Shown one piece after another: positions 23,248 to 33,854 of a stretch of 64,000 nt of DNA. Within the stretch, counting starts at the first letter, position 1. Each line of letters opens with the position of its first letter. The stretch covers positions 1,116,001-1,180,000 of the forward strand of contig NZ_NBIM01000001.1 in NCBI RefSeq assembly GCF_002242685.1, read 5' to 3'. The DNA comes from Oceanimonas doudoroffii (GTDB lineage: Bacteria > Pseudomonadota > Gammaproteobacteria > Enterobacterales > Aeromonadaceae). Made by a program: the position numbers and the translations under genes. The notes below the pieces were generated by a model. It did not search any database, was not told where the DNA came from, and worked only from the letters and a program-made list of their open reading frames with translations.

Positions 23248-24417
23248 TCATCTGCCACTGCTGGCGGCCCTGGCCGGCAGATCGACTCCTCGCCCTAGCT
23301 CCCGGCATTGCGCCCGGCGCTGCCAGAGCAGCACGGCGATCAGGGCATAGAGGCCGATTACCACCAGGCCCACCCATTCAATCTTGAGCGGCGTGAACTG
23401 GAACAGCAGCACCAGCACGAACATCAATGTCCAGTTCAACACCAGGTAACGCCCCTTGCCGAGCTTTTCCGCTTCCATGCCCAGGTTGGTGGTGTAGAGA
23501 CGGATCAACGAGTCGAGGGAGTTAATCACGAAAATCACGCCCACCACCACCATCGCCAACCGCAGCTCGTTGCCGATGGCAATGGCCTCGCTGAAGTGCA
23601 GATAGAGCACGGAGAACCAGATGGCGATGGGAATGGAAGGCACCACCAGCATGGCCAAACACAGTTGCCAGGCCGGCAGGCCGCCGGCAAAGCGGGCCAC
23701 AAACTGGCCGATCATGATGCTCCAGGAAAACCACCAGAACAGGTAAAAGGCATGGTAATCACTCATGGGCGTCACAAAACGGTGCAAATTGCCGAAGTAG
23801 TCGCCAATCTCCGCCATGGTGCCCGCCAGCGCCGGCACACCGGCGCCCGAGTTCACCGCCATAACCGCGATCAGTGCCACAAACAGCCAGGTGGAGGCCA
23901 CGCTTAGAAACTTCACATATCGCACGTCCGAGCTCGACCACACGGCGCACAACACCACCAGGGCCACCAGGCCATAGCGCAGCGCCGGCGTAATCCCCGT
24001 CACATAGTCCGGCAGGTAGCTGAGAAACAGATAACCAGTAAAGGCACAGGTGCCGATGATCACCAGATTGTTGATAAAACGCACCAGAGGCAACTCAAAC
24101 AGCCTCACCCTGGGCTCGATCAGCACAAAGTAAAAGGTGGTGAAAAAGTAAAAACCCCACACCAGAAAGCCCCAGAAGCCAAACTCGATGGCGAGCGGGC
24201 TGGCAAAGCCGTAGACAGACTCACTAACGTAAACCGGAAACTCGGTCAGTGGAAACATCACCAGGCCCACATCCAGGCCCGAGGTAAACAGAATGGCGAT
24301 AAAGGTAAACAGGGAGGTCGGCATCTCCCCCTTGCAGGGCACACGGCCGTAACGCAGCAATATCCACACCGACGCGGTCAACGTCAGCACAATGGCAACA
24401 GACAACACCATATCCAT
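23248..24417 (-). CDS. Short BCCT-type choline/betaine/carnitine transporter
   Basis: The BCCT signature region is recognisable in FWWFSWSIMIGQFVARFAGG followed by LAMLVVPSIPIAIWFSVLY, which matches the aromatic-rich helix 8 box and its flank. TSGLDVGLVMFPLTEFPVY corresponds to the helix 3 region. About ten to eleven spans are predicted. At 389 residues it is far shorter than ordinary BCCTs (about 500-680), mainly because both termini are short. The ATG at 24417 has AGAGGA at good spacing. A BetI-like palindrome lies 115 bp upstream, which suggests choline or betaine as substrate. It is monocistronic. Confidence 0.72.
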   Translation of the reverse strand: MDMVLSVAIVLTLTASVWILLRYGRVPCKGEMPTSLFTFIAILFTSGLDVGLVMFPLTEFPVYVSESVYGFASPLAIEFGFWGFLVWGFYFFTTFYFVLIEPRVRLFELPLVRFINNLVIIGTCAFTGYLFLSYLPDYVTGITPALRYGLVALVVLCAVWSSSDVRYVKFLSVASTWLFVALIAVMAVNSGAGVPALAGTMAEIGDYFGNLHRFVTPMSDYHAFYLFWWFSWSIMIGQFVARFAGGLPAWQLCLAMLVVPSIPIAIWFSVLYLHFSEAIAIGNELRLAMVVVGVIFVINSLDSLIRLYTTNLGMEAEKLGKGRYLVLNWTLMFVLVLLFQFTPLKIEWVGLVVIGLYALIAVLLWQRRAQCRELGRGVDLPARAASSGR

Positions 24418-24531
24418 GGAGAATCCTCTTTTGTTGGTTCCATCAATCAATTCATGCCCAAAGGCAACGGGTTTGTGGCTGGTTGACTTTCCCTCCTGAC
24501 AAGCATCATTGGCGCCGGCGACGCCACGTTT

Positions 24532-24545
24532 ATTGAACATTCAAT
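24532..24545. promoter_or_regulatory. BetI-like operator upstream of the BCCT gene
   Basis: ATTGAACATTCAAT differs only in the seventh base from the perfect palindrome ATTGAACGTTCAAT found 12 bp before betI (40483-40496). It lies 115 bp upstream of the BCCT start and is a good candidate site for the BetI repressor. Confidence 0.75.
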
Positions 24546-24748
24546 CAATGATTAACTTTATATGCAGAAAAAAAATCAATAGGTATCTGTTGCGACCCGA
24601 GGCATGCCTGTTCGCGACAAGGTGGAATGGGCCGAAAAGAGGGGTCTGTCAGCGGCGGTTGTATTGCCGAAGGCCCGTGCAGCAGGCCAGGCATTTACCG
24701 GAGCCAGAAAGGGTGCGCCAACAACAAAGGCGCTCAAAGGGGATATCG

Positions 24749-24776
24749 AAAAAAAGGACGGCATGGCGCCGTCCTT
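24749..24776 (-). terminator. Terminator of the acidic amino acid symporter gene
   Basis: On the minus strand AAGGACGGC-GCCAT-GCCGTCCTT is followed by a run of T (the plus-strand A-run at 24749-24755), 16 bp after the symporter stop. Confidence 0.93.
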
Positions 24777-24791
24777 GTCGAGTCGAGGCGA

Positions 24792-26069
24792 TTAGCCCCG
24801 GCGCACCTCGGCCGCAGGCTTGGTGCTGTTGTAAACGGTTTCGTCCAGCTCGTTTTCGCTCTTGCCGATCAGCACGGACACCATAAGATCACCGCACACG
24901 TTCACGCTGGTACGGGCCATGTCGAGGATACGGTCGATACCGGCCACAATGGCCAGGCCTTCCAGGGGCAGCCCCACTGTGGTCAGCACCAGCGACAGCA
25001 TGATCAAGCCGGCGCCGGGCACACCGGCGGTACCAATGGAGCCCAGGGTGGCGGTCATGATGATCAAAATGTAATCGGACATGGCCAGATCAACGCCAAA
25101 GGCCTGGGCCACGAACACGGCGCAAATACCCTGATACAGGGCGGTGCCGTCCATGTTGATGGTCGCGCCCAGGGGCAGCACAAAGCTGGACACGCCCTGA
25201 GACACACCCATTTCCTCGCGGGCCGCCTTGATGGTGGCCGGCAGGGTGCCGGAGCTGCTGGTAGTGGTGTAAGCCACCGCGGCCGGGTTGATCAGGCCTT
25301 TCAGGTAGCGCACCGGGTTCAGGCGACCCAGCACGCTGATCAGGCCACTGTAAACCACCAACACATGCACCAGCGAACCCACATACACCAGGGCCACCAC
25401 CTTGATCAGCGGCAGCAGCACCTCCAGGCCATACTTGCCCGCCACCCAGGCCATCAGACCAAACACACCATAGGGGGCCAACTTCATGATAATTTCGGTC
25501 AGCTTGTACATGCCTTCGGCCAGACTCTCAAACAGGCGAATGGCCGGCTGTGCCTTTTCACCACAGAGGGTCAGGGCAATGCCCAGACCCAGGGCGAACA
25601 CGATGATCTGCAGTATGTTGCCGGCAGCCATGGCGCCGATGGGGTTTTGCGGGATCAGCGCCAGCAGGGTCTCCACCAGGGAAGGGGCTTCGCTTGCCGA
25701 TACCGGCTCGGTAATGGTCATGTTCATGCCGGCCCCCGGTGTGAACAGCAGCGCCAGCATCAGGCCAATGGTAATGGCCACCGCCGTGGTACCCAGATAG
25801 AGCACCACCGACTTCAGGCCAATGCGGCCCATTTTGCGGGTGTCCTGCATGGAGGTCACGCCCACCACCAGGGAGCAGAATACCAGCGGCACAATCAGCA
25901 TCTTGATCGCGTTGATAAACAGCGTGCCAATCGGCTTCAACACTTCGGCGTCCGGCCCCATCAGGGTGCCCGCGATCACACCCAGCACCATGCCTACGAG
26001 AATTTTTTTCCAGAGCGCCAGTCCGCTCCAAAAGCCGCTACGGCCCTGATCTACTACTGTCTGTTCCAT
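24792..26069 (-). CDS. Dicarboxylate/amino acid:cation symporter (GltP/DctA family)
   Basis: An inner-membrane secondary transporter (DAACS family) for glutamate, aspartate or C4-dicarboxylates driven by protons or sodium. The 425-residue protein has the serine-rich re-entrant loop TTTSSSGTLPATI (HP1), the NMDGTALYQ motif of helix 7, the HP2 region ATLGSIGTAGVPGAG, and the AIVAGIDRILDMARTSVNVCGD segment of helix 8, where an Arg in this family favours acidic amino acids. AAGGA precedes the ATG. It lies downstream of a two-component system, and its own promoter is a near-consensus sigma-54 site, so the system very likely controls it. Nearby aspartase and racemase point to aspartate or glutamate. 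Confidence 0.94.
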   Translation of the reverse strand: MEQTVVDQGRSGFWSGLALWKKILVGMVLGVIAGTLMGPDAEVLKPIGTLFINAIKMLIVPLVFCSLVVGVTSMQDTRKMGRIGLKSVVLYLGTTAVAITIGLMLALLFTPGAGMNMTITEPVSASEAPSLVETLLALIPQNPIGAMAAGNILQIIVFALGLGIALTLCGEKAQPAIRLFESLAEGMYKLTEIIMKLAPYGVFGLMAWVAGKYGLEVLLPLIKVVALVYVGSLVHVLVVYSGLISVLGRLNPVRYLKGLINPAAVAYTTTSSSGTLPATIKAAREEMGVSQGVSSFVLPLGATINMDGTALYQGICAVFVAQAFGVDLAMSDYILIIMTATLGSIGTAGVPGAGLIMLSLVLTTVGLPLEGLAIVAGIDRILDMARTSVNVCGDLMVSVLIGKSENELDETVYNSTKPAAEVRRG

Positions 26070-26181
26070 CGTCAGTTCCTTGTTACTGATGTCGAGGTAT
26101 ACAGCCGGACGCGGCCCTGTGCGGGTGCACATCCGAACCATCGGTATCTGGCGCTCACTCGCCAATCCCTGACGTAATAAC

Positions 26182-26197
26182 AGCAAAGGCCGTGCCA
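26182..26197 (-). promoter_or_regulatory. Sigma-54 promoter of the symporter gene
   Basis: On the minus strand TGGCACG-GCCT-TTGCT matches the sigma-54 consensus TGGCACG-N4-TTGCW at every defined base. The predicted start is about 100 nt before the symporter ATG. Confidence 0.93.
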
Positions 26198-26275
26198 GCT
26201 TTTGACAAACAGTTAAGCAACTGTTTTTTAAATAATTTTTAATGAAAATTGAGTGACAGCGCCGAATGGAAGGGG

Positions 26276-26291
26276 TATAACCAGGGTTATA
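26276..26291. promoter_or_regulatory. Proximal enhancer candidate for the sigma-54 regulator
   Basis: TATAACC-A-GGGTTATA is an inverted repeat about 80 bp upstream of the -24 element, at the usual distance for NtrC-family activators. Its half-site recurs in the distal candidate. Confidence 0.7.
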
Positions 26292-26345
26292 AAGGGAACC
26301 AGCAGAAAACGGAAAAGTACAATTTTATCAAAAGGATAGAAAGGG

Positions 26346-26378
26346 TAACCCGGGTTATAACCCATCACCCGGGTTATA
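26346..26378. promoter_or_regulatory. Distal enhancer candidate, repeated palindromes
   Basis: TAACCCGGGTTA (26346-26357, perfect), the overlapping GGGTTATAACCC (26352-26363, perfect), and a further ACCCGGGTTATA (26367-26378). All share the GGGTTAT half-site with the proximal candidate. They lie about 150-180 bp upstream of the -24 element, just after the response regulator stop. Confidence 0.7.
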
Positions 26379-26385
26379 GGGGTTG

Positions 26386-27807
26386 TCAGGCCTCGTCGGC
26401 CGCGGCCTTTTTCAGCCGTTTGCTCAACGCCGGCTGGGAAATACCCAGCAGCCGGGCGGCGAGTGACTGATTGCCCTCGGCCCGGCGCATGGCCTCGGCC
26501 ACCAGCAGGTCGCCCACTTCGGTCAGCCTGGGCAGGGTCTGCATGCGGCGAAAGGGGCTCGGCTCGTCTTCCCCCTCGGTCAGCAGGGGCAGCTCCTGTT
26601 GTCCAAGGGCCTGACGGAACACCTCCATCGACAGCATTTTCGACTTGTGCCGGCTCATGGCGTCATAAGCCAGGGCCCGCAACTCCCGCACGTTGCCGGG
26701 AAAGGCGTAGTTGGCCAGCAGCACCGGTAATTCCCGCGGCAGGGTGGGCACGGTTTTATCCAGCTCCGCCGCCGCCTCGGCAAGAAAATGCTCCAGCAAC
26801 AGGGGAATGTCGCCCTTGCGCTGGCGCAGCGGCGGAATTTCCACCTGATGGGTACGCAGCCGGTAGTAAAGATCCTTGCGAAAACTGCCTTCCTGCTGCT
26901 TGCGGGCCAGATCCTGGTGGGTGGCCACCACCACCCTGGCACTGATGCGTTTGGGCCTGTCACTGCCCAGGGGGTAATATTCCCCTTCCTGCAGCAGCCG
27001 CAACAACTTGACCTGGGAAGTCAGGCTCAGGTCGCCAATCTCGTCCAGAAACAGGGTGCCGCCCGCGGCCTGCTCTATCATGCCGGCCCGGGCCCGGTCG
27101 GCACCGGTAAAGGCCCCCTTGTGATGGCCGAACAGGGTATCGGCGAACACATTGTCGTCCAGCCCCGCCACGTTCACGCTGATCACGGGGCCGCTTCGGT
27201 TGCTCAGGGTATGAATGGCGTGGGCAATCAGCTCCTTGCCCACCCCGCTCTCACCGCAGATCAACACCGGCTGGCTGCTGGCGGAAACCGCCTCCAGGTA
27301 CTGAAACACCGAGCGCATGCCCTTGTCCTGGGTAATGATGCCGGCGAACACCTCGGGGCGCTCCAGGGTATCGGTCAGAAAGCGCCGGCGCATCTCCTGG
27401 TTTTCCAGGCGCATTTCCTGGCTGGCAATGGCCCGGCGAATGCCGCCGATCAGTCGGTCTTCTTCCGTGGTCTTGACGAAATAGTCATAGGCGCCGAGGC
27501 GAATGCAGTTCACTGCCGTCTCCAGCTGGTTCAGCCCGCTGATGATGATCACGGCTATCTCGGGATATTCTTCCACTATCTGTTGCAGCAGGGCCTCACC
27601 CGACAGGTGCGGCATGGTCAGATCCAGCAGCACCAGGCCAATGGGCTCACGGGCAATGATGCCCATGACCTCCCGGCTGTCTTCGCAGCGATAAATGTGA
27701 TTAATGCCGCCCCGCCGCTCCAGGGCAATGCTGAGGCTGCGCAGAAAGGGGGCTTCATCATCCACCAGCAGCACACCAAAGCTGGGGTAGGAATTGCTTT
27801 TGATCAC
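26386..27807 (-). CDS. Sigma-54-dependent response regulator (DctD/AauR-like)
   Basis: A 473-residue activator with three domains. The receiver domain spans about 10-125, with acidic pair D16/D17, phosphoacceptor D62 in LLDLTMP and K112 in YDYFVK. The AAA+ domain spans about 155-390, with Walker A GESGVGKE at 185-192 and the sigma-54 contact loop GAFTGA at 231-236. A C-terminal Fis-type helix-turn-helix ends [22 protein letters not shown]. It starts at GTG 27807 and overlaps the kinase stop by 4 bp, so the two are translationally coupled. The likely target is the sigma-54 promoter just downstream, before the symporter. Confidence 0.95.
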
Positions 27808-29480
27808 GATGGGGTTCCTTCGATCGCGGGTAACGTCAGGGTGGCGCGGGTTCCCCGGCCCGGCTCGGATTCATATTCCAGCCGGCCGCCATGCTCCTGT
27901 ACGATGCCGGCCGACACGGACAAACCCAGCCCGATGCCGCCCTGTTCGCGCTTGGTGGTAAAAAACGGATCTTTCAGCCGGGACAGATCGCCGGGCGATA
28001 TGCCCACGCCCTGATCGGTAATTTCAAGATACAACTCGTTGCGTGGCGCCCGGTGTCCGGTGCGAATAACAATGCCCTGTTCCGGGCTGGTAAGGGCCTG
28101 ACAGGCATTCACCACCAGGTTGATCAGCACCTGCTCAATGCGCTGGGCGTTGCCCCTGAAGTGCGGCAACCCGGGCTCGCAATGCACTTCCACGCGATGA
28201 CTGGACGTGCGAATGGTGTTGTCGACCAGACGGATCACCGTGGCCACCAGCGCATTGAGATCCACGTTCTCGTTCAGCTCCGCCGGGCCCTGACGGGCAA
28301 AGTCGCGCAGATCATCCACGATGCGGCGAATGCGCCCGGCGCTGGCCTGCATGTCGTCGAGCATGGCGGGCAGCTCCTCGCGCATGCGGCTGTAGGGCAA
28401 CCCGGCCAGGTAAAAATCGCCCTGCTGCTCATATTGCGCCTCCAGCAGCGCTTCCAGATCGGCAAAGGCGTCTTTCAGCACCGGCAGGTTGAGCAGCAGC
28501 AGGCTGCTGGGATTGTTGATTTCGTGGGCCACTCCCGACACCAGAATGCCCAGGGACGACATCTTGTCGGCCTGGATCAATTGCTGATGCTGCAGTTGCA
28601 GCTTCTCGCTGCGCCGGGCCACTTCCCGGGCCAGCATGCGGTTCCAGATGACAATCCCCCCCAGCACCACCAGCAACACCGCCGACACCAGGGCGGCGGC
28701 CAGGCCGATTTTCTTCCAGGGCCAGCCGCCCTGCTCCAGCGGCCCCAGCCACTTGTCGTAAATCTGTTGCAGGCGGCCGGTGTTCTTGAGAATGGCCAGC
28801 CCTTCGCTGAAGCCCGCCAGCAGCGCCTCGTTCCCCTTTGATACCGCATAGCCGTAGCGCTGGGGCTGAAAAGGCTGGCCCACCGGCACTATGTTGGACA
28901 ACTCCAGCTCGCGGCCCAGATACAGCCCCGGCAGGTTGGCAACCAGGGCATAATCGTGCTTGCCCGCCGCCAGCAACCGCAGCGCCGAGGCATGGGTGTC
29001 GACCAGCACCAGGTTGTCTCCCACGTTATTGTGCAGCAGGTGGTCGTGCATAATGCCGCCCCGCTGCACAACCACCTCTTTGCCGCGCAGATCGGCCAGC
29101 TCCCTGGCTTCGTCTTCCCCTTTGCGGGCAAAAATGGACTGATACACAATGGCGTGTGGTGGCGAGAAACTGTAATCATCGCTGCGCTCGCTGGAGAAAA
29201 TCATGCCCTGCAGCACATCCATCTCGCCCGTATCCAGGGCCTGGCGCATGCGATTCCAGTCGCCGAGGTGAAACTCCACCTGCATGCCCATGACTTCGGC
29301 AATGGCACGGGTCAACTCCACGTTGTAGCCGTCGGGCTCGCCGTCTTCATTGAGAAATTCATAGGGCGGATAGTCGTGATCGCCGCCCACACGAATAATG
29401 CCTTCCCGATAGGGCTCTGCCGCCATGGCGCCGCCCAGGGCCAGTCCCCACAACAACAGGCACGCCTGAAGCCATTTCAT
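27804..29480 (-). CDS. Sensor histidine kinase with periplasmic amino-acid-binding domain
   Basis: The 558-residue protein has a signal sequence (1-21) and then a family-3 solute-binding domain (about 29-245). That domain begins IIRVGGDHDYPPYEF and includes GYNVELTRAIAEVMG, typical of polar amino acid binding proteins. One membrane span lies at about 258-279. A DctB-like kinase core follows: phosphorylated H319 in GVAHEINNP, N-box NLVVNACQAL, DQGVGIS, FFTTK and GIGLGLS. The binding domain is fused in place of the usual PAS/Cache sensor of DctB, so it should read a periplasmic ligand directly, probably an acidic amino acid given the neighbours. Its ATG overlaps the LysR stop by 4 bp. Confidence 0.94.
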   Translation of the reverse strand: MKWLQACLLLWGLALGGAMAAEPYREGIIRVGGDHDYPPYEFLNEDGEPDGYNVELTRAIAEVMGMQVEFHLGDWNRMRQALDTGEMDVLQGMIFSSERSDDYSFSPPHAIVYQSIFARKGEDEARELADLRGKEVVVQRGGIMHDHLLHNNVGDNLVLVDTHASALRLLAAGKHDYALVANLPGLYLGRELELSNIVPVGQPFQPQRYGYAVSKGNEALLAGFSEGLAILKNTGRLQQIYDKWLGPLEQGGWPWKKIGLAAALVSAVLLVVLGGIVIWNRMLAREVARRSEKLQLQHQQLIQADKMSSLGILVSGVAHEINNPSSLLLLNLPVLKDAFADLEALLEAQYEQQGDFYLAGLPYSRMREELPAMLDDMQASAGRIRRIVDDLRDFARQGPAELNENVDLNALVATVIRLVDNTIRTSSHRVEVHCEPGLPHFRGNAQRIEQVLINLVVNACQALTSPEQGIVIRTGHRAPRNELYLEITDQGVGISPGDLSRLKDPFFTTKREQGGIGLGLSVSAGIVQEHGGRLEYESEPGRGTRATLTLPAIEGTPS

Positions 29481-30394
29481 GCCGTGGGCTCCGCCCGGCC
29501 GTAATTCTGCTCACACACTTGCCAGAAGGCTTCGGCGGTGTCGGACAGGGGCCGGTTGCAGCGATAGAGACACACATTGAGCGGCAACTGCCAACGGTCG
29601 TCACCGCAGATCACCAGAAAGCCCTGACGCAACTCTTCTCGAATGGCAAAGCTCGGCACCCAGGCAATGCCCATGCCCTGCATGGCCATCACCTTCAGGC
29701 TGTCGGCCAGGGGTGACTCAAACGCCTGACGCAGGGTCACGGTGCGTGGCCGGCTGCGCAGCAACCGCTCCACACAGCGGCCGAGAAAAATTTCTTCGGG
29801 GTACCCCAGATAAGGCAGGGTGGCACCATGGGCGGCGTCCAGGTTGAAAACGGGCTGGCCGTCCTCATCGGCGCGACACACCGGCACCAGTTGCTCGGTT
29901 TGCAGCTCAAAACGGTGAAACTGCCCCGGCGCCAGGGTGGGATCTTCAAACGCCAGCAAAAAGTCGCAAATGCCGTTTTTCAGGGCCTGCACGCTGTCAT
30001 CCACATTGGCCACCAGCTGGCGGGTACTGATGCCCTCCAGCTCTCGGCGAAACGACTGCAGAAAGGCGGGAAATAAAGACAGTGACAGGGTGTGAGACAC
30101 GGCGAAGTCGATGGTGTGGGCACCACGCTGTTTCATGGAGCGAAGATGGCCGATGCTGTCGGCCAGCTGGGTCACCAGGTTGCGCGCGGTAATACGAAAC
30201 AGCCGACCTTCATCGGTCAGTTGCACCGGCGTGCTGGTTCGGTCGACCAACTCGCAGCCCAGGGCGGTTTCCAGTGCGCGAATGCGCCGGCTGAAGGCGG
30301 GCTGGGTCATGTGCCGCTCCTGGGCGGAGCGGGAAAAACTCTGGGTGTGGGCCAATGAAAGAAAGTCTTCCAGCCATTTTGTTTCTATGTTCAT
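29477..30394 (-). CDS. LysR-family regulator, HypT/YjiE-like
   Basis: A 305-residue regulator whose N-terminus ETKWLEDFLSLAHTQSFSRSAQERHMTQPAFSRRIRALE closely follows the HypT (YjiE) winged helix. The C-terminal part also matches (SLSLSLFPAFL; GMGIAWVPSFAIREELRQG). HypT in E. coli responds to hypochlorite, but here the gene is translationally coupled to the kinase-regulator pair and divergent from an Asp/Glu racemase, so a role in acidic amino acid metabolism is more likely. AAGGGTGG precedes the ATG. A palindromic stretch in its upstream region (30425-30446) is a possible operator. Confidence 0.9.
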   Translation of the reverse strand: MNIETKWLEDFLSLAHTQSFSRSAQERHMTQPAFSRRIRALETALGCELVDRTSTPVQLTDEGRLFRITARNLVTQLADSIGHLRSMKQRGAHTIDFAVSHTLSLSLFPAFLQSFRRELEGISTRQLVANVDDSVQALKNGICDFLLAFEDPTLAPGQFHRFELQTEQLVPVCRADEDGQPVFNLDAAHGATLPYLGYPEEIFLGRCVERLLRSRPRTVTLRQAFESPLADSLKVMAMQGMGIAWVPSFAIREELRQGFLVICGDDRWQLPLNVCLYRCNRPLSDTAEAFWQVCEQNYGRAEPTA

Positions 30395-30424
30395 GCACCA
30401 CCCTTGGCTTGATACCCACAGCTT

Positions 30425-30446
30425 GGTCAGCCCGCTGACCGGTCAG
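30425..30446. promoter_or_regulatory. Palindromic site between LysR gene and racemase
   Basis: GGTCAG-CCCG-CTGACC-GGTCAG contains the perfect palindrome CTGACCGGTCAG (30435-30446) and an overlapping inverted repeat. It lies 31 bp upstream of the LysR start, a usual place for autoregulation. Confidence 0.5.
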
Positions 30447-30665
30447 GGTGGCATTATATCACTCGCCGGCGCCGATGCTCAGGGCCCTGTTGCACCATGC
30501 CAATCTGGCACCGGCGATAACAAAGCGGCATAACGGCGCCATCTTATTGATATTGCAACTGCGGCACGGGGGTTATGCGGCTTGCGCATAGGGGGTACTC
30601 AAACGGCATTGTCGGTGCCCTCGCCGGCTGTTTTAGGCTGCAAAAAAACAGCCTGGAGACAGCTT

Positions 30666-31376
30666 ATGAGTTCCCTGATTGGCATTCTTGGCGGCATGGG
30701 CCCGCTTGCCACCGTCGACTTTGTGACCAAGATCATTCACCAGACCCCGGCCAGCCGGGATCAGGATCACCTGCCGCTGCTGGTGCATTCGGTGCCGCAA
30801 ATTCCCGACCGCACCGCCTGCCTGCTGGAGAACAAGGAGTCTCCCCTCGAGGCCCTGCTGAAAGGGCTGAACACCCTGATAAGCGGCGGCGCCGGCTGCA
30901 TTGCCATTCCCTGTAACACCGCCCATTACTGGTATGAGCCGCTGGCCCAGGCGAGCAGCGTGCCCATTTTGCACATTGCTCGGGCCTGCGCCGCGGCGCT
31001 TGCAGGTGAAAAGGTTGGTTCGGTTGGCCTGCTGGCCACCGACGGCACCCTGAAGGCCGGTTTTTATGCTCGAGAGCTGGCGGAATTTGGCATTGCCCTC
31101 ACCACGCCTCGGCCCGAACTGCAGCGCCGAGTGATGGAAGGCATTTATCTGGTCAAGTCCGGCGCCGTAAAGCAGGGTGCTCAAATGCTGGATGGCTGCA
31201 TGGCCGACATGCTGCAACAAGGGGTAGAGCGGGTCATTCTGGGATGCACCGAAATTCCTTTCGCGCTGGACTCCATTGGCTCGGCCCATGCCCATCTGGG
31301 CATGGACGCCACCAGGGCGCTGGCGGCGGCCTGTGTGCAGTGGCACCGCCAGCAGCAAATGGCGGTGGCGGCCTGA
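30666..31376 (+). CDS. Aspartate/glutamate racemase family protein
   Basis: A PLP-independent racemase of the Asp/Glu superfamily (236 residues). IGILGGMGPLATVDFVTKI is the conserved start. The two catalytic cysteines are in IPCNTAHYW (near residue 84) and LGCTEIP (near 193). The ATG at 30666 has GGAG at good spacing; a small hairpin (AGGCTG/CAGCCT, 30635-30654) ends at this ribosome site. It would interconvert L- and D-aspartate or glutamate, which could let the cell use D-aspartate through the neighbouring aspartase. Family members also include broad-specificity racemases (YgeA). Confidence 0.9.
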   Translation: MSSLIGILGGMGPLATVDFVTKIIHQTPASRDQDHLPLLVHSVPQIPDRTACLLENKESPLEALLKGLNTLISGGAGCIAIPCNTAHYWYEPLAQASSVPILHIARACAAALAGEKVGSVGLLATDGTLKAGFYARELAEFGIALTTPRPELQRRVMEGIYLVKSGAVKQGAQMLDGCMADMLQQGVERVILGCTEIPFALDSIGSAHAHLGMDATRALAAACVQWHRQQQMAVAA

Positions 31377-31454
31377 TCGCACCGCCACTTTTATGACGGC
31401 CCGGGATATTGATGCCATGACGGCGTCGGCCCCGGGCCGATTTGCGTTTGCCAA

Positions 31455-32852
31455 TCAGGCGACGCAGGGCGTCACCATGGACGCCGGGCTGAGCACCGCC
31501 GCCAGGCGCTCTTCGCTGAGCAGCTGCTCTTCGCGCACCAGCTCGGCCACGGTGGCGCCGGTCATCAATGCCTGGTTGGCAATGCGGCTGGCGTTGTCGT
31601 AACCGATATGGGGCACCAGGGCGGTAATGATGCCGATACTGTTATGCAGGTGGGCGGCACACTGCTCCTCGTTGGCCTTGATGCCGCGCACACAGCGCGT
31701 GTCGAGCATGCGAATGGCTTCACCCAGCATGCGGCTGGAGTTGAGCAGGTTATAGATAATCAGCGGCTCCATGGCGTTCAGCTGCAGCTGGCCGGCTTCC
31801 GCCGCCAGGGTGACCGCCAGATCGGCACCGATCACCTGAAACGCAGTCTGGTTCATTGCCTCGGGAATGACCGGGTTCACCTTGCCGGGCATGATGGACG
31901 AACCGGGTTGCATGGCGGGCAGCTGAATTTCGCCCAGGCCGGTGCGCGGGCCGCTGGACAGCAGGCGCAGATCGTTGCTGAGTTTGGACAGCTTCACCGC
32001 CACCCGTTTGAGCACGCTGGAGAAGGTAACAAAGGCGCCCATGTCGGAGGTGGCTTCCACCAGATTGCTGGCCAGGCTGACCGGCTGGCCAGACACCTCG
32101 GCCAGGTGATTTACCGCCAGCGGCGCGTAGTCGGGGTGGGCGTTAATGCCGGTGCCGATGGCAGTGCCGCCCAGGTTCACCTCGCACAGCAGCCGGCAGG
32201 CGTCGTCGATACGGGCGTCTTCTTCACCCAGGTTGACGGCAAAGGCCTCGAACTCCTGACCCAGGGTCATGGGCACGGCGTCCTGCAGCTGAGTTCGGCC
32301 CATTTTGAGAATGTGGGCAAACTCCTCGGCCTTGGCCGCCAGGCTTTGTTGCAGACCGGCAATGGCCTGCTTGAGCGGCTGGGCGGCAAACACGATGGCC
32401 AGCCGGGCGGCGGTGGGATAGGCGTCGTTGGTGGACTGGGAGCGGTTCACGTCATTATTGGGGTGCAGGTGTTTGTAGTCGCCCCGGGCATGGCCCAGCT
32501 TGGCCAGCGCCAGGTTGGCAATGACTTCGTTGGCGTTCATGTTGGTGGAGGTGCCCGCCCCGCCCTGAATAAGATCCACCACAAACTGATCGTGCAGGGC
32601 GCCGTTCATGATATCGGCACAGGCGGCGTTAATGGCTTCGGCCTTGTGCGGCTCCAGCTGGCCCAGATCTCGGTTGGCGCGGGCGGCGGCGGCCTTGACC
32701 ATGGCCAGGGCGTTGATCAGCTCGGGAAAGTGGCTGATGGGCACACCGGTAATGGTGAAGTTCTGCTGCGCGCGCTGGGTTTGAATGCCGTACCAGGCCT
32801 CGGCCGGCACCGGCTGTTCACCCAAAAGATCTTTTTCAATACGTGTTTGCAT
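31455..32852 (-). CDS. aspA: Aspartate ammonia-lyase
   Basis: Aspartase splits L-aspartate into fumarate and ammonia, which makes aspartate a carbon and nitrogen source. The 465-residue protein has the fumarase/aspartase superfamily features: GGAGTSTNMNANEVIAN, DVNRSQSTNDAYPTA, and the signature loop GSSIMPGKVNP carrying the catalytic serine. The opening RIEKDLLGEQPVPAEAWYGIQTQRA is specific for aspartase rather than fumarase C. AGGTAA precedes the ATG. It is divergent from an XRE regulator and convergent with the racemase. Confidence 0.95.
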   Translation of the reverse strand: MQTRIEKDLLGEQPVPAEAWYGIQTQRAQQNFTITGVPISHFPELINALAMVKAAAARANRDLGQLEPHKAEAINAACADIMNGALHDQFVVDLIQGGAGTSTNMNANEVIANLALAKLGHARGDYKHLHPNNDVNRSQSTNDAYPTAARLAIVFAAQPLKQAIAGLQQSLAAKAEEFAHILKMGRTQLQDAVPMTLGQEFEAFAVNLGEEDARIDDACRLLCEVNLGGTAIGTGINAHPDYAPLAVNHLAEVSGQPVSLASNLVEATSDMGAFVTFSSVLKRVAVKLSKLSNDLRLLSSGPRTGLGEIQLPAMQPGSSIMPGKVNPVIPEAMNQTAFQVIGADLAVTLAAEAGQLQLNAMEPLIIYNLLNSSRMLGEAIRMLDTRCVRGIKANEEQCAAHLHNSIGIITALVPHIGYDNASRIANQALMTGATVAELVREEQLLSEERLAAVLSPASMVTPCVA

Positions 32853-33041
32853 TGGTTACCTGCTTGGTGGAGTTTGTGCGGTTCAAGGCCCTATTACAGC
32901 AGTGCGCACAGGCACTGAAAATTTGACGCACTGTCTCAAACTGATGCTGATTGGCGCAGTCAGTACACCAGAAAGCGACTGTCGCACCCTGTTGCAGAAA
33001 AATAACGTTAGGTATACTGACCCCAGTTTCACGGAGCCTCT

Positions 33042-33854
33042 ATGCACCAAGACTTTGCCAAAAACCTGCGTCTGCTCTGCAGTTACTACAAGTCAGTAGC
33101 TGAGGTATGTCGCCGGCTGAAGATAAACCGCCCCCAGTTCAACCGCTATTTGAGTGGTCGCTACAAGCCCTCGGCCCATAGCCTGCGCCGCCTGTGCGAC
33201 TTTTTCGGAGTGGAAGAGCACGAAATTCTGATGCCCCACAGCCAGTTCGAACTGCTGATCCAGGTGCGACCCAAGCCCCAGGTTGTGGAAGAGGCGCACC
33301 CGGAAGCCGAGCACATGAGCCTGCTGCAGGCCAACTCTCAGGGGCTGGAAAAATACCTGGGTTATTACTTTGAATACCACTACTCCATGGCCTTTCCGGG
33401 CAAGATACTGCGCAACCTGCTGTGCCTGGAGCGCCGGGGCGGCGGCGTGTATTACCAGCGCACCGAGCGCCTGCAACAGGCCCCGGGCGAGCGGGTGTTT
33501 CACAGCAAATATCTGGGCATGGCCCATCTGCTGGCGGATCGCATTTTTCTGGTGGACTACGAATCGCTCACCGGCAACCAGATCACCCAGACCATTTTGA
33601 TCCCCACCTTTAAAAGCCGGGTGGGCCGGCTCAGTGGCCTGCGCCTGGGCGCCTCCGCCAGCGGCGAGCGCATTCCCAGCTGCACCCGAGTGGTGCTGGA
33701 ATACCTGGGCCGGCAGGTGGACATTCGCCGCACCCTCTCCCTGTGCAGCACCTTTGATGCCGACAGCGGCCAGATCTCCGGCGCCATTCTTAACGCCATC
33801 GGCAACGACATGGCCCCCCACGAGCACCACTTTCGGGCCCGGCATTATTTCTGA
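33042..33854 (+). CDS. XRE-family transcriptional regulator
   Basis: A 270-residue protein with an N-terminal Cro/CI-type helix-turn-helix (SVAEVCRRLKINRPQFNRYLSGRYKPSAHSLRRLCDFFGV, about residues 18-56). A large C-terminal part of about 200 residues lacks a motif I can name and may be a ligand-sensing domain. GGAG lies 5 nt before the ATG, and TATACT (33013-33018) is a probable -10. It is divergent from aspA across 189 bp, so aspA is a plausible target, though the gene could also act elsewhere. Confidence 0.85.
   Translation: MHQDFAKNLRLLCSYYKSVAEVCRRLKINRPQFNRYLSGRYKPSAHSLRRLCDFFGVEEHEILMPHSQFELLIQVRPKPQVVEEAHPEAEHMSLLQANSQGLEKYLGYYFEYHYSMAFPGKILRNLLCLERRGGGVYYQRTERLQQAPGERVFHSKYLGMAHLLADRIFLVDYESLTGNQITQTILIPTFKSRVGRLSGLRLGASASGERIPSCTRVVLEYLGRQVDIRRTLSLCSTFDADSGQISGAILNAIGNDMAPHEHHFRARHYF

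Follow-up and report, generated by a model that had tools for sequence, protein, structure and literature searches.

A candidate sigma-54 control unit with a Venus-flytrap sensor kinase beside an Asp/Glu symporter gene of Oceanimonas doudoroffii

What is controlled by a histidine kinase fused to a binding-protein-like domain, a response regulator and a LysR-type regulator, when their genes lie between that of an Asp/Glu symporter on one side and those of a racemase and an aspartase on the other? The question is raised by a stretch of 64,000 nucleotides of Oceanimonas doudoroffii (GCF_002242685.1, NZ_NBIM01000001.1 1,116,001-1,180,000), called here the window, whose positions serve as coordinates. 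Our answer, to which we give a probability of roughly 0.7, is that the locus would serve the detection and uptake of acidic amino acids in this marine gammaproteobacterium, by the mechanism proposed below.

The original prediction, made from the window's sequence, had grouped six open reading frames (ORFs) at 24792-32852 into one set. Pfam and NCBIfam profile scans of the window ORFs, by which families were assigned, confirmed the six ORFs and their named families (Table 1). The 4-bp overlaps described earlier also hold: they occupy 29477-29480 between the genes of LysR and the kinase and 27804-27807 between those of the kinase and the regulator, the latter starting with GTG. The six genes nevertheless do not form a single unit. 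The racemase gene, on the plus strand, is divergent from that of LysR and convergent with that of the aspartase, so that gene direction separates four transcription units: aspA, the racemase, LysR-kinase-regulator, and the symporter. A sigma-70 promoter scan of 24500-33100 found 0 sites (2.0 expected).

The symporter does have its own sigma-54 promoter, as had been claimed: TGGCACGGCCTTTGCT is the sole match with zero mismatches in a scan of the window, and none of 200 shuffled versions of the intergenic sequence preceding the symporter attained a perfect site. Matches with up to two mismatches amount to 15 in the window versus 19.9 in shuffles, i.e. not above chance; evidential weight therefore falls on the perfect site alone, given where it lies. 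ATG 26069 is the probable start of the symporter, in place of 26186, and rpoN is present in the genome. Between the stop codon of the regulator gene and the promoter lie three palindromic ATAACC/GGTTAT sites, at approximately -180, -162 and -87 relative to the -24 element. This candidate enhancer is new, being absent from the original prediction. Three such sites are found in the window versus 0.03 expected. In the whole genome (3.83 Mb) the pattern TATAACCNNGGTTATA occurs with up to two mismatches in seven places, three of them at the symporter locus; since the reversed control pattern occurs in nine, the other four are background, and the site cluster is unique to the symporter locus. This confinement suggests that the kinase/regulator pair acts locally and is dedicated to the symporter, and we infer that the regulator binds the three candidate sites. 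The locus thus carries the parts of a sigma-54 two-component system of the AauSR/DctBD kind: a kinase, an adjacent NtrC-type regulator and a -24/-12 promoter with upstream sites.

The product of this promoter is related to known carriers of acidic amino acids. The closest solved relative of the symporter is the "Aspartate transporter" 9bgz (475 bits). The motif LDMART is common to both, and its aligned Asp and Arg, in transmembrane segment (TM) 8, are what we take to be the acidic amino acid site. The protein shares family, length and LDMART with symporters of the GltP/GltTk type; it differs from the GltP equivalog in scoring 305 bits, below the cut-off of 638, and it also stays under the cut-off of the DctA model (NCBIfam).

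We then compared 33 upstream regions, namely those of the window, of 12 genus loci, of L011 (a Desulfovibrio metagenome-assembled genome) and of 19 further loci; for L145-L147 the region was picked after a sigma-54 site had been noticed on the divergent side, which favours a match there. The best sigma-54 site has at most two mismatches in 30 of the 33. Half-sites occur at -96 to -82 in 28 regions (as GGTTAT at -88 to -84 in 25), at -168 to -152 in 24 and at -183 to -173 in 21, with all three places occupied in 19. Their number exceeds that of dinucleotide shuffles at P <= 0.0034 in 23 regions. Conservation therefore supports a function of the predicted promoter and sites.

The gene behind the promoter changes from locus to locus. 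It is a symporter in 20/33 regions, including four (L102-L105) with a diverged type that retains LDM(L/I)RT. In L011 the target is an aspartase, followed by NhaC and a type I asparaginase; L130 and L133 have aspartase-symporter, L134 and L140-L144 an amino-acid-type ABC transporter, which we take to resemble the AapJ/Bzt systems, and L135 an AGCS symporter with a glutaminase. Target families were scanned in L011, L134 (binding protein only, at a contig end), L135, L140 and L145; the targets of L141-L144 and L146-L147 were placed by ORF likeness to the scanned loci. The aspartase, asparaginase, glutaminase and SDF symporters among the targets suggest that the substrate class comprises acidic amino acids and the corresponding amides. 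Similar candidate sites at similar spacing thus recur in distant loci while the target gene changes. On comparative grounds this is good support, though no proof, for the pair being in control of the use of these compounds. The part of the original prediction that had the pair drive sigma-54-dependent uptake of acidic amino acids is strengthened by this comparison.

In a tree of kinase and regulator, L134 and L135 group within a part of 24 rows whose other members are loci of symporter or aspartase type (support 94/89, not starred); this tree has long branches for L011, L132, L133, L129 and L139, may join the ABC and TAXI loci wrongly, and leaves four forks unsettled. Two genomes each carry two paralogous kinase/regulator pairs with different targets (L130 and L134 in G796, L131 and L135 in G662). 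One pair is of the symporter type and the other has an ABC or AGCS-glutaminase target, a natural pair for comparing specificity.

Table 1. Position, strand and supporting matches of the features of the locus (window coordinates).
Feature	Position	Strand	Remarks
SDF-family Asp/Glu symporter (GltP-like)	24792..26069	-	PF00375 450 bits
Sigma-54 -24/-12 promoter of symporter, TGGCACGGCCTTTGCT	26197-26182	-	zero mismatches
Candidate enhancer site 3 (proximal), TATAACCAGGGTTATA dyad	26276..26291	.	half-sites -93 and -85 from -24 element
Candidate enhancer site 2	26344..26359	.	half-sites -165 and -161 from -24 element
Candidate enhancer site 1 (distal)	26363..26378	.	half-site -180 from -24 element
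NtrC-type response regulator	26386..27807	-	PF00072, PF00158, PF02954; receiver, sigma-54 AAA+ with GAFTGA, Fis-type HTH; LLDLTMP
Sensor histidine kinase	27804..29480	-	PF00497 (SBP_bac_3), PF00512, PF02518; HisKA-HATPase
Periplasmic sensor domain, kinase residues 22-256	28713..29417	-	closest solved 3h7m
LysR-type regulator, HypT/DarR-like group	29477..30394	-	PF00126, PF03466; 4-bp overlap with kinase
Conserved dyad GGTCA-N5/6-TGACC, LysR-racemase gap	30425..30440	.	candidate LysR site; 7/7 genus intergenic regions aligned
Conserved TTAT-N11-ATAG, LysR-racemase gap	30573..30591	.	candidate LysR box; 7/7 genus intergenic regions aligned
Asp/Glu-type racemase	30666..31376	+	PF01177 146 bits; TIGR00035 and CuyB models; PCNTAH and GCTE Cys motifs
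Aspartase (aspartate ammonia-lyase)	31455..32852	-	NF008909 728 bits (cut-off 510); TIGR00839 658 (cut-off 681)

The gene neighbourhood is conserved to different degrees. The kinase is present in 13 of 23 genus genomes, O. doudoroffii included, six carrying the names Oceanimonas, Oceanisphaera or Zobellella. Of the 79 loci returned by the kinase search only L005-L011, in which the sensor domain matched full-length, were used, the rest matching mainly the kinase part; the genus count leaves out weak kinase matches in G023 and G072 (L097-L099, L106). A symporter stands beside the pair in 13/13 genus loci, the diverged one of L102-L105 with 44-45% identity. The regulator adjoins the kinase in 12, LysR lies upstream of the kinase in 8, the racemase is found in 7 and the aspartase in 5. 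The full six-gene order, which the original prediction proposed to look for in other genomes, is present in 5 of the 13. An in-frame kinase start yields the 4-bp overlap with LysR in seven of the eight LysR loci (GTG in two), and the eighth, L008, has a 14-bp gap.

A class-wide search with kinase E <= 1e-90 and sensor domain E <= 1e-55 returned the own genome only (1/369 each). In the order to which a Pseudomonas genome belongs (we take it to be Pseudomonadales), 16 of 390 genomes carry the sensor domain, in 18 places; one Photobacterium replicon carries it too. The regulator follows the kinase in all 19 of these places. Three of them (L133, L137, L138) have LysR before the kinase and a divergent racemase, then the symporter (aspartase and symporter in L133), with a sigma-54 site between the racemase and the next gene. 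The LysR-kinase linkage is thus found in 11 loci of two orders; the regulator is directly behind the kinase in ten of these, and the racemase adjoins LysR in ten. Within the stretches fetched, no racemase was found in the 21 kinase loci that have no LysR before the kinase (5/13 in the genus, 16/19 further), L011, which has neither LysR nor racemase, being counted separately.

From these arrangements we propose the following mechanism. The periplasmic Venus-flytrap domain of the kinase would detect an acidic amino acid or amide outside the cell, and signalling would run from there inwards: the kinase would phosphorylate the NtrC-type regulator, which in this form would bind the three ATAACC/GGTTAT sites and bring about sigma-54 transcription of the symporter gene. 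The aspartase would convert imported Asp to fumarate and ammonia, and the racemase would channel D-isomers into the same route. LysR most likely activates the racemase gene on an intracellular D-amino acid, as DarR does. As LysR is co-translated with the kinase and the regulator, its autoregulation, if it occurs, would also set the dose of both.

Several observations weigh against this mechanism. A scan allowing up to three mismatches found no dyad upstream of the aspartase or the racemase, and direct control of these two genes by the pair is therefore improbable in O. doudoroffii. Half-site counts are not clearly over those of shuffles in 10 of the 33 upstream regions (P 0.013 to 0.27). The binding protein and ATPase of the ABC transporters score below curated cut-offs, so their substrate is not established, and the target in L145-L147 is a divergent TAXI TRAP transporter without assigned substrate. 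In Oceanisphaera psychrotolerans (L007, genome G012) the regulator gene is missing beside the kinase while the promoter and sites are kept. That genome has a copy of the regulator on another contig (L172), split into two ORFs and adjoining an ORF whose sequence suggests an ammonium transporter.

Two further points concern the sensor. By reading of its sequence, the kinase has a signal peptide and one later TM. Its sensor domain has the SBP_bac_3 Venus-flytrap fold (PF00497, 112 bits), with 3h7m, which we take to be the HK29 sensor of Geobacter sulfurreducens, as closest solved relative (E 4.8e-78 over 219 residues). The original prediction regarded a kinase fused to a binding protein as uncommon. 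This is not so: at E <= 1e-15 the sensor region has 2304 matching proteins, one such domain has been solved, and the best 120 of the 2304 all carry kinase domains. Among these best matches, less the own entry P0010 (119 relatives), the domain shows strong conservation at many positions. Some positions differ between symporter/aspartase, ABC and TAXI loci, groups that are also clades. Arg99, aligned with the Arg of AncQR that holds the alpha-carboxylate, is kept in all 119. The position of the amine-binding Asp, located through the AncQR alignment (D167 in AncQR, D161 in LAOBP and D157 in GlnBP; PMC5431781), is Ala181 here; of the same 119 relatives 118 likewise have Ala and one has Gly.

The loss of the amine-binding Asp with retention of Arg99 is what one would expect if the sensor read a C4-dicarboxylate, e.g. 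fumarate, the product of aspartase, or another carboxylate without an amine; the pair would then be a DctB/DctD-like system that drives an Asp/Glu symporter incidentally, and DctA indeed belongs to the SDF transporters. Against this, asparaginase, glutaminase and an amino-acid ABC transporter do not fit as targets of a dicarboxylate sensor, and LDM.RT, as found in the solved aspartate transporter, is retained by the symporters behind the promoter. Moreover, the CdgH PBPb-II domain, with Asn at the amine-Asp position, binds Gln and His nonetheless (PMC5431781), so that Ala181 does not exclude an amino acid as ligand. We hold a dicarboxylate sensor to be unlikely.

In the crystal, the HK29 sensor is in the closed state without ligand, and the authors considered it possible that the domain does not open (PMC4352136). 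Together with Ala181, this means that direct reading of periplasmic Asp and Glu is not supported in the form originally predicted; the domain may bind them all the same. The crystal also suggests that the flytrap could be permanently closed, without any small ligand, and be signalled to by another protein such as the symporter or a free binding protein. The constant presence of a symporter beside the kinase in the genus would agree with such a partner. The strong conservation of many domain positions, some of them differing by target-transporter group (though these groups coincide with clades), speaks against it, and homologues adjoin ABC and AGCS transporters too, so that no single partner transporter is conserved. 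A closed flytrap therefore strikes us as distinctly unlikely, and a sensor of acidic amino acids or amides as the better account of the targets.

The racemase, whose Cys motifs PCNTAH and GCTE are presumably catalytic, scores 239.8 with the NCBIfam CuyB equivalog (cut-off 190), and cuyA is present in the genome; it might thus be a cysteate racemase, the locus serving sulfonate amino acids instead of aspartate. However, eight of eight other racemases scanned also pass this cut-off, which is why the CuyB model seems to discriminate poorly. These eight (of 15 pieces) are distant or from Pseudomonadales and have neither an assigned substrate nor a known cuyA linkage, so that the model result weakens cysteate as substrate and does not exclude it. 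In addition, cuyA lies on another contig in an operon with its own racemase, which has a higher CuyB score (284), and the racemase of the window is not linked to cuyA. We therefore set CuyB aside as very improbable; by context, an Asp/Glu racemase is the better reading.

The cuyA operon just mentioned (L170, G000:C3:143000-162000, outside the window) looks like one for D-cysteate or sulfonates. A HypT-group LysR gene is divergent from cuyA (562 bits, cut-off 450). Downstream of cuyA follow a hisD-family dehydrogenase, presumably HpsN-like, an ORF that reads like an aminotransferase, a TRAP transporter (DctP identified by scan, its two partner subunits by reading) and the racemase.

The LysR of the window was first described as HypT-like, and this description is not borne out beyond a distant kinship. 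Its best NCBIfam match is HypT at 213 bits, under the family cut-off of 301, and E. coli HypT is 38% identical to it. Of Met123, Met206 and Met230 of HypT, which we take to be its redox residues, the first falls opposite a gapped stretch of the alignment and the other two opposite Leu. Among 12 distant racemase loci of the order, taken with 1.5-kb flanks, eight have a related LysR (segments 32-42% identical) next to the racemase. The best match and the identity to HypT could be invoked for a regulator that responds to hypochlorite and ties the kinase/regulator pair to oxidative stress, but such a role is scarcely credible given the low score, the missing Met residues, the divergent racemase, the LysRs beside distant racemases and the HypT-group LysR beside cuyA; HypT identity was dropped. 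The window has instead a trait of DarR systems, a linked aspartate-type racemase gene, and its divergent position suggests, by analogy, that LysR is a DarR-like regulator responding to D-aspartate. The two conserved motifs of the LysR-racemase gap, of which TTAT-N11-ATAG is a box of the T-N11-A type, may be its binding sites.

If both regulators act as supposed, the kinase, the regulator, the three-site enhancer and the promoter could be a portable control unit with an exchangeable target, and the LysR-linked operon could read both mirror forms of a nutrient, the flytrap sensing the acidic amino acid outside and LysR the D-form inside, with the dose of the pair set by autoregulation. We put this forward tentatively, the odds being rather against it as a whole.

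Some neighbouring genes deserve mention. In E. coli K-12 (L175) hypT is on the same strand as the neighbouring iadA (isoaspartyl dipeptidase), yjiG and yjiH. Proximity to genes of D-amino-acid or aspartate type thus recurs among HypT-group LysRs, and one may ask whether HypT itself has such an effector. The Gate-family protein of the window showed no link to E. coli YjiH (E 0.41). At 33042-33854, divergent from the aspartase, lies the gene of an XRE-type HTH protein, a candidate regulator of aspA: it co-occurs with the aspartase in the same 5/13 genus loci, and the intergenic region between them is strongly conserved. On the other side, 23248-24540 encodes a membrane protein related to BCCT, of 430 aa only, which matches no more of the BCCT profile than its central part; five further genus loci (L005, L006, L009, L100, L101) have a homologue on the far side of the symporter.

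In a wider frame, flytrap-fused kinases are already known as a large group. New are the operator, its recurrence before different targets and the recurring LysR-kinase linkage. We found no description of such a flytrap-kinase system in the open-licence literature, which was judged partly by titles and the starts of abstracts, so that this absence proves little. A widespread kinase family could be assigned a likely role together with a DNA operator and a promoter to act on, and its ligand can be tested through one reporter. Similar enhancer sites with changing targets form a natural data set on the re-use of sigma-54 control. The LysR linkage offers a testable case of a single operon that senses a nutrient in its L- and its D-form. 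In the sea, D-aspartate and D-glutamate do serve as nutrients, and such sensing logic would bear on the recycling of cell-wall material by marine bacteria.

Known systems resemble the locus in part. DarR/RacD of Vibrio fischeri and AalR/DarR of Acinetobacter baylyi reportedly consist of a LysR regulator controlling an aspartate racemase, and so share with the locus a LysR plus a linked racemase; we know of no DarR system coupled to a two-component system. E. coli HypT (YjiE) is similar in sequence to the LysR and adjoins iadA, and differs in that the LysR here is without the redox Met, has other neighbours and stays below the family cut-off. HK29 has a single flytrap sensor domain and is close in sequence to the kinase here; no ligand or target of it is known to us. 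BvgS, the prototype of a large family of Venus-flytrap kinases, has tandem flytraps and a phosphorelay (PMC4352136), whereas the kinase here has a single flytrap.

The nearest likeness in function is to AauS/AauR of Pseudomonas, of the DctB/DctD type: a histidine kinase with an NtrC-type regulator and a sigma-54 promoter in the control of acidic amino acid uptake. The reported or putative targets of AauR include an ABC transporter, gltP and glutaminase/asparaginase, and its operator is TTCGG-N4-CCGAA (PMC7962211). By reading, this operator is absent from the region upstream of the symporter, where the conserved sites are ATAACC/GGTTAT. The locus differs further in the LysR gene joined to the operon, in the divergent racemase and, probably, in its SBP_bac_3 flytrap sensor. 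The pair would thus work like AauS/AauR and, by its predicted operator, is not a member of AauSR.

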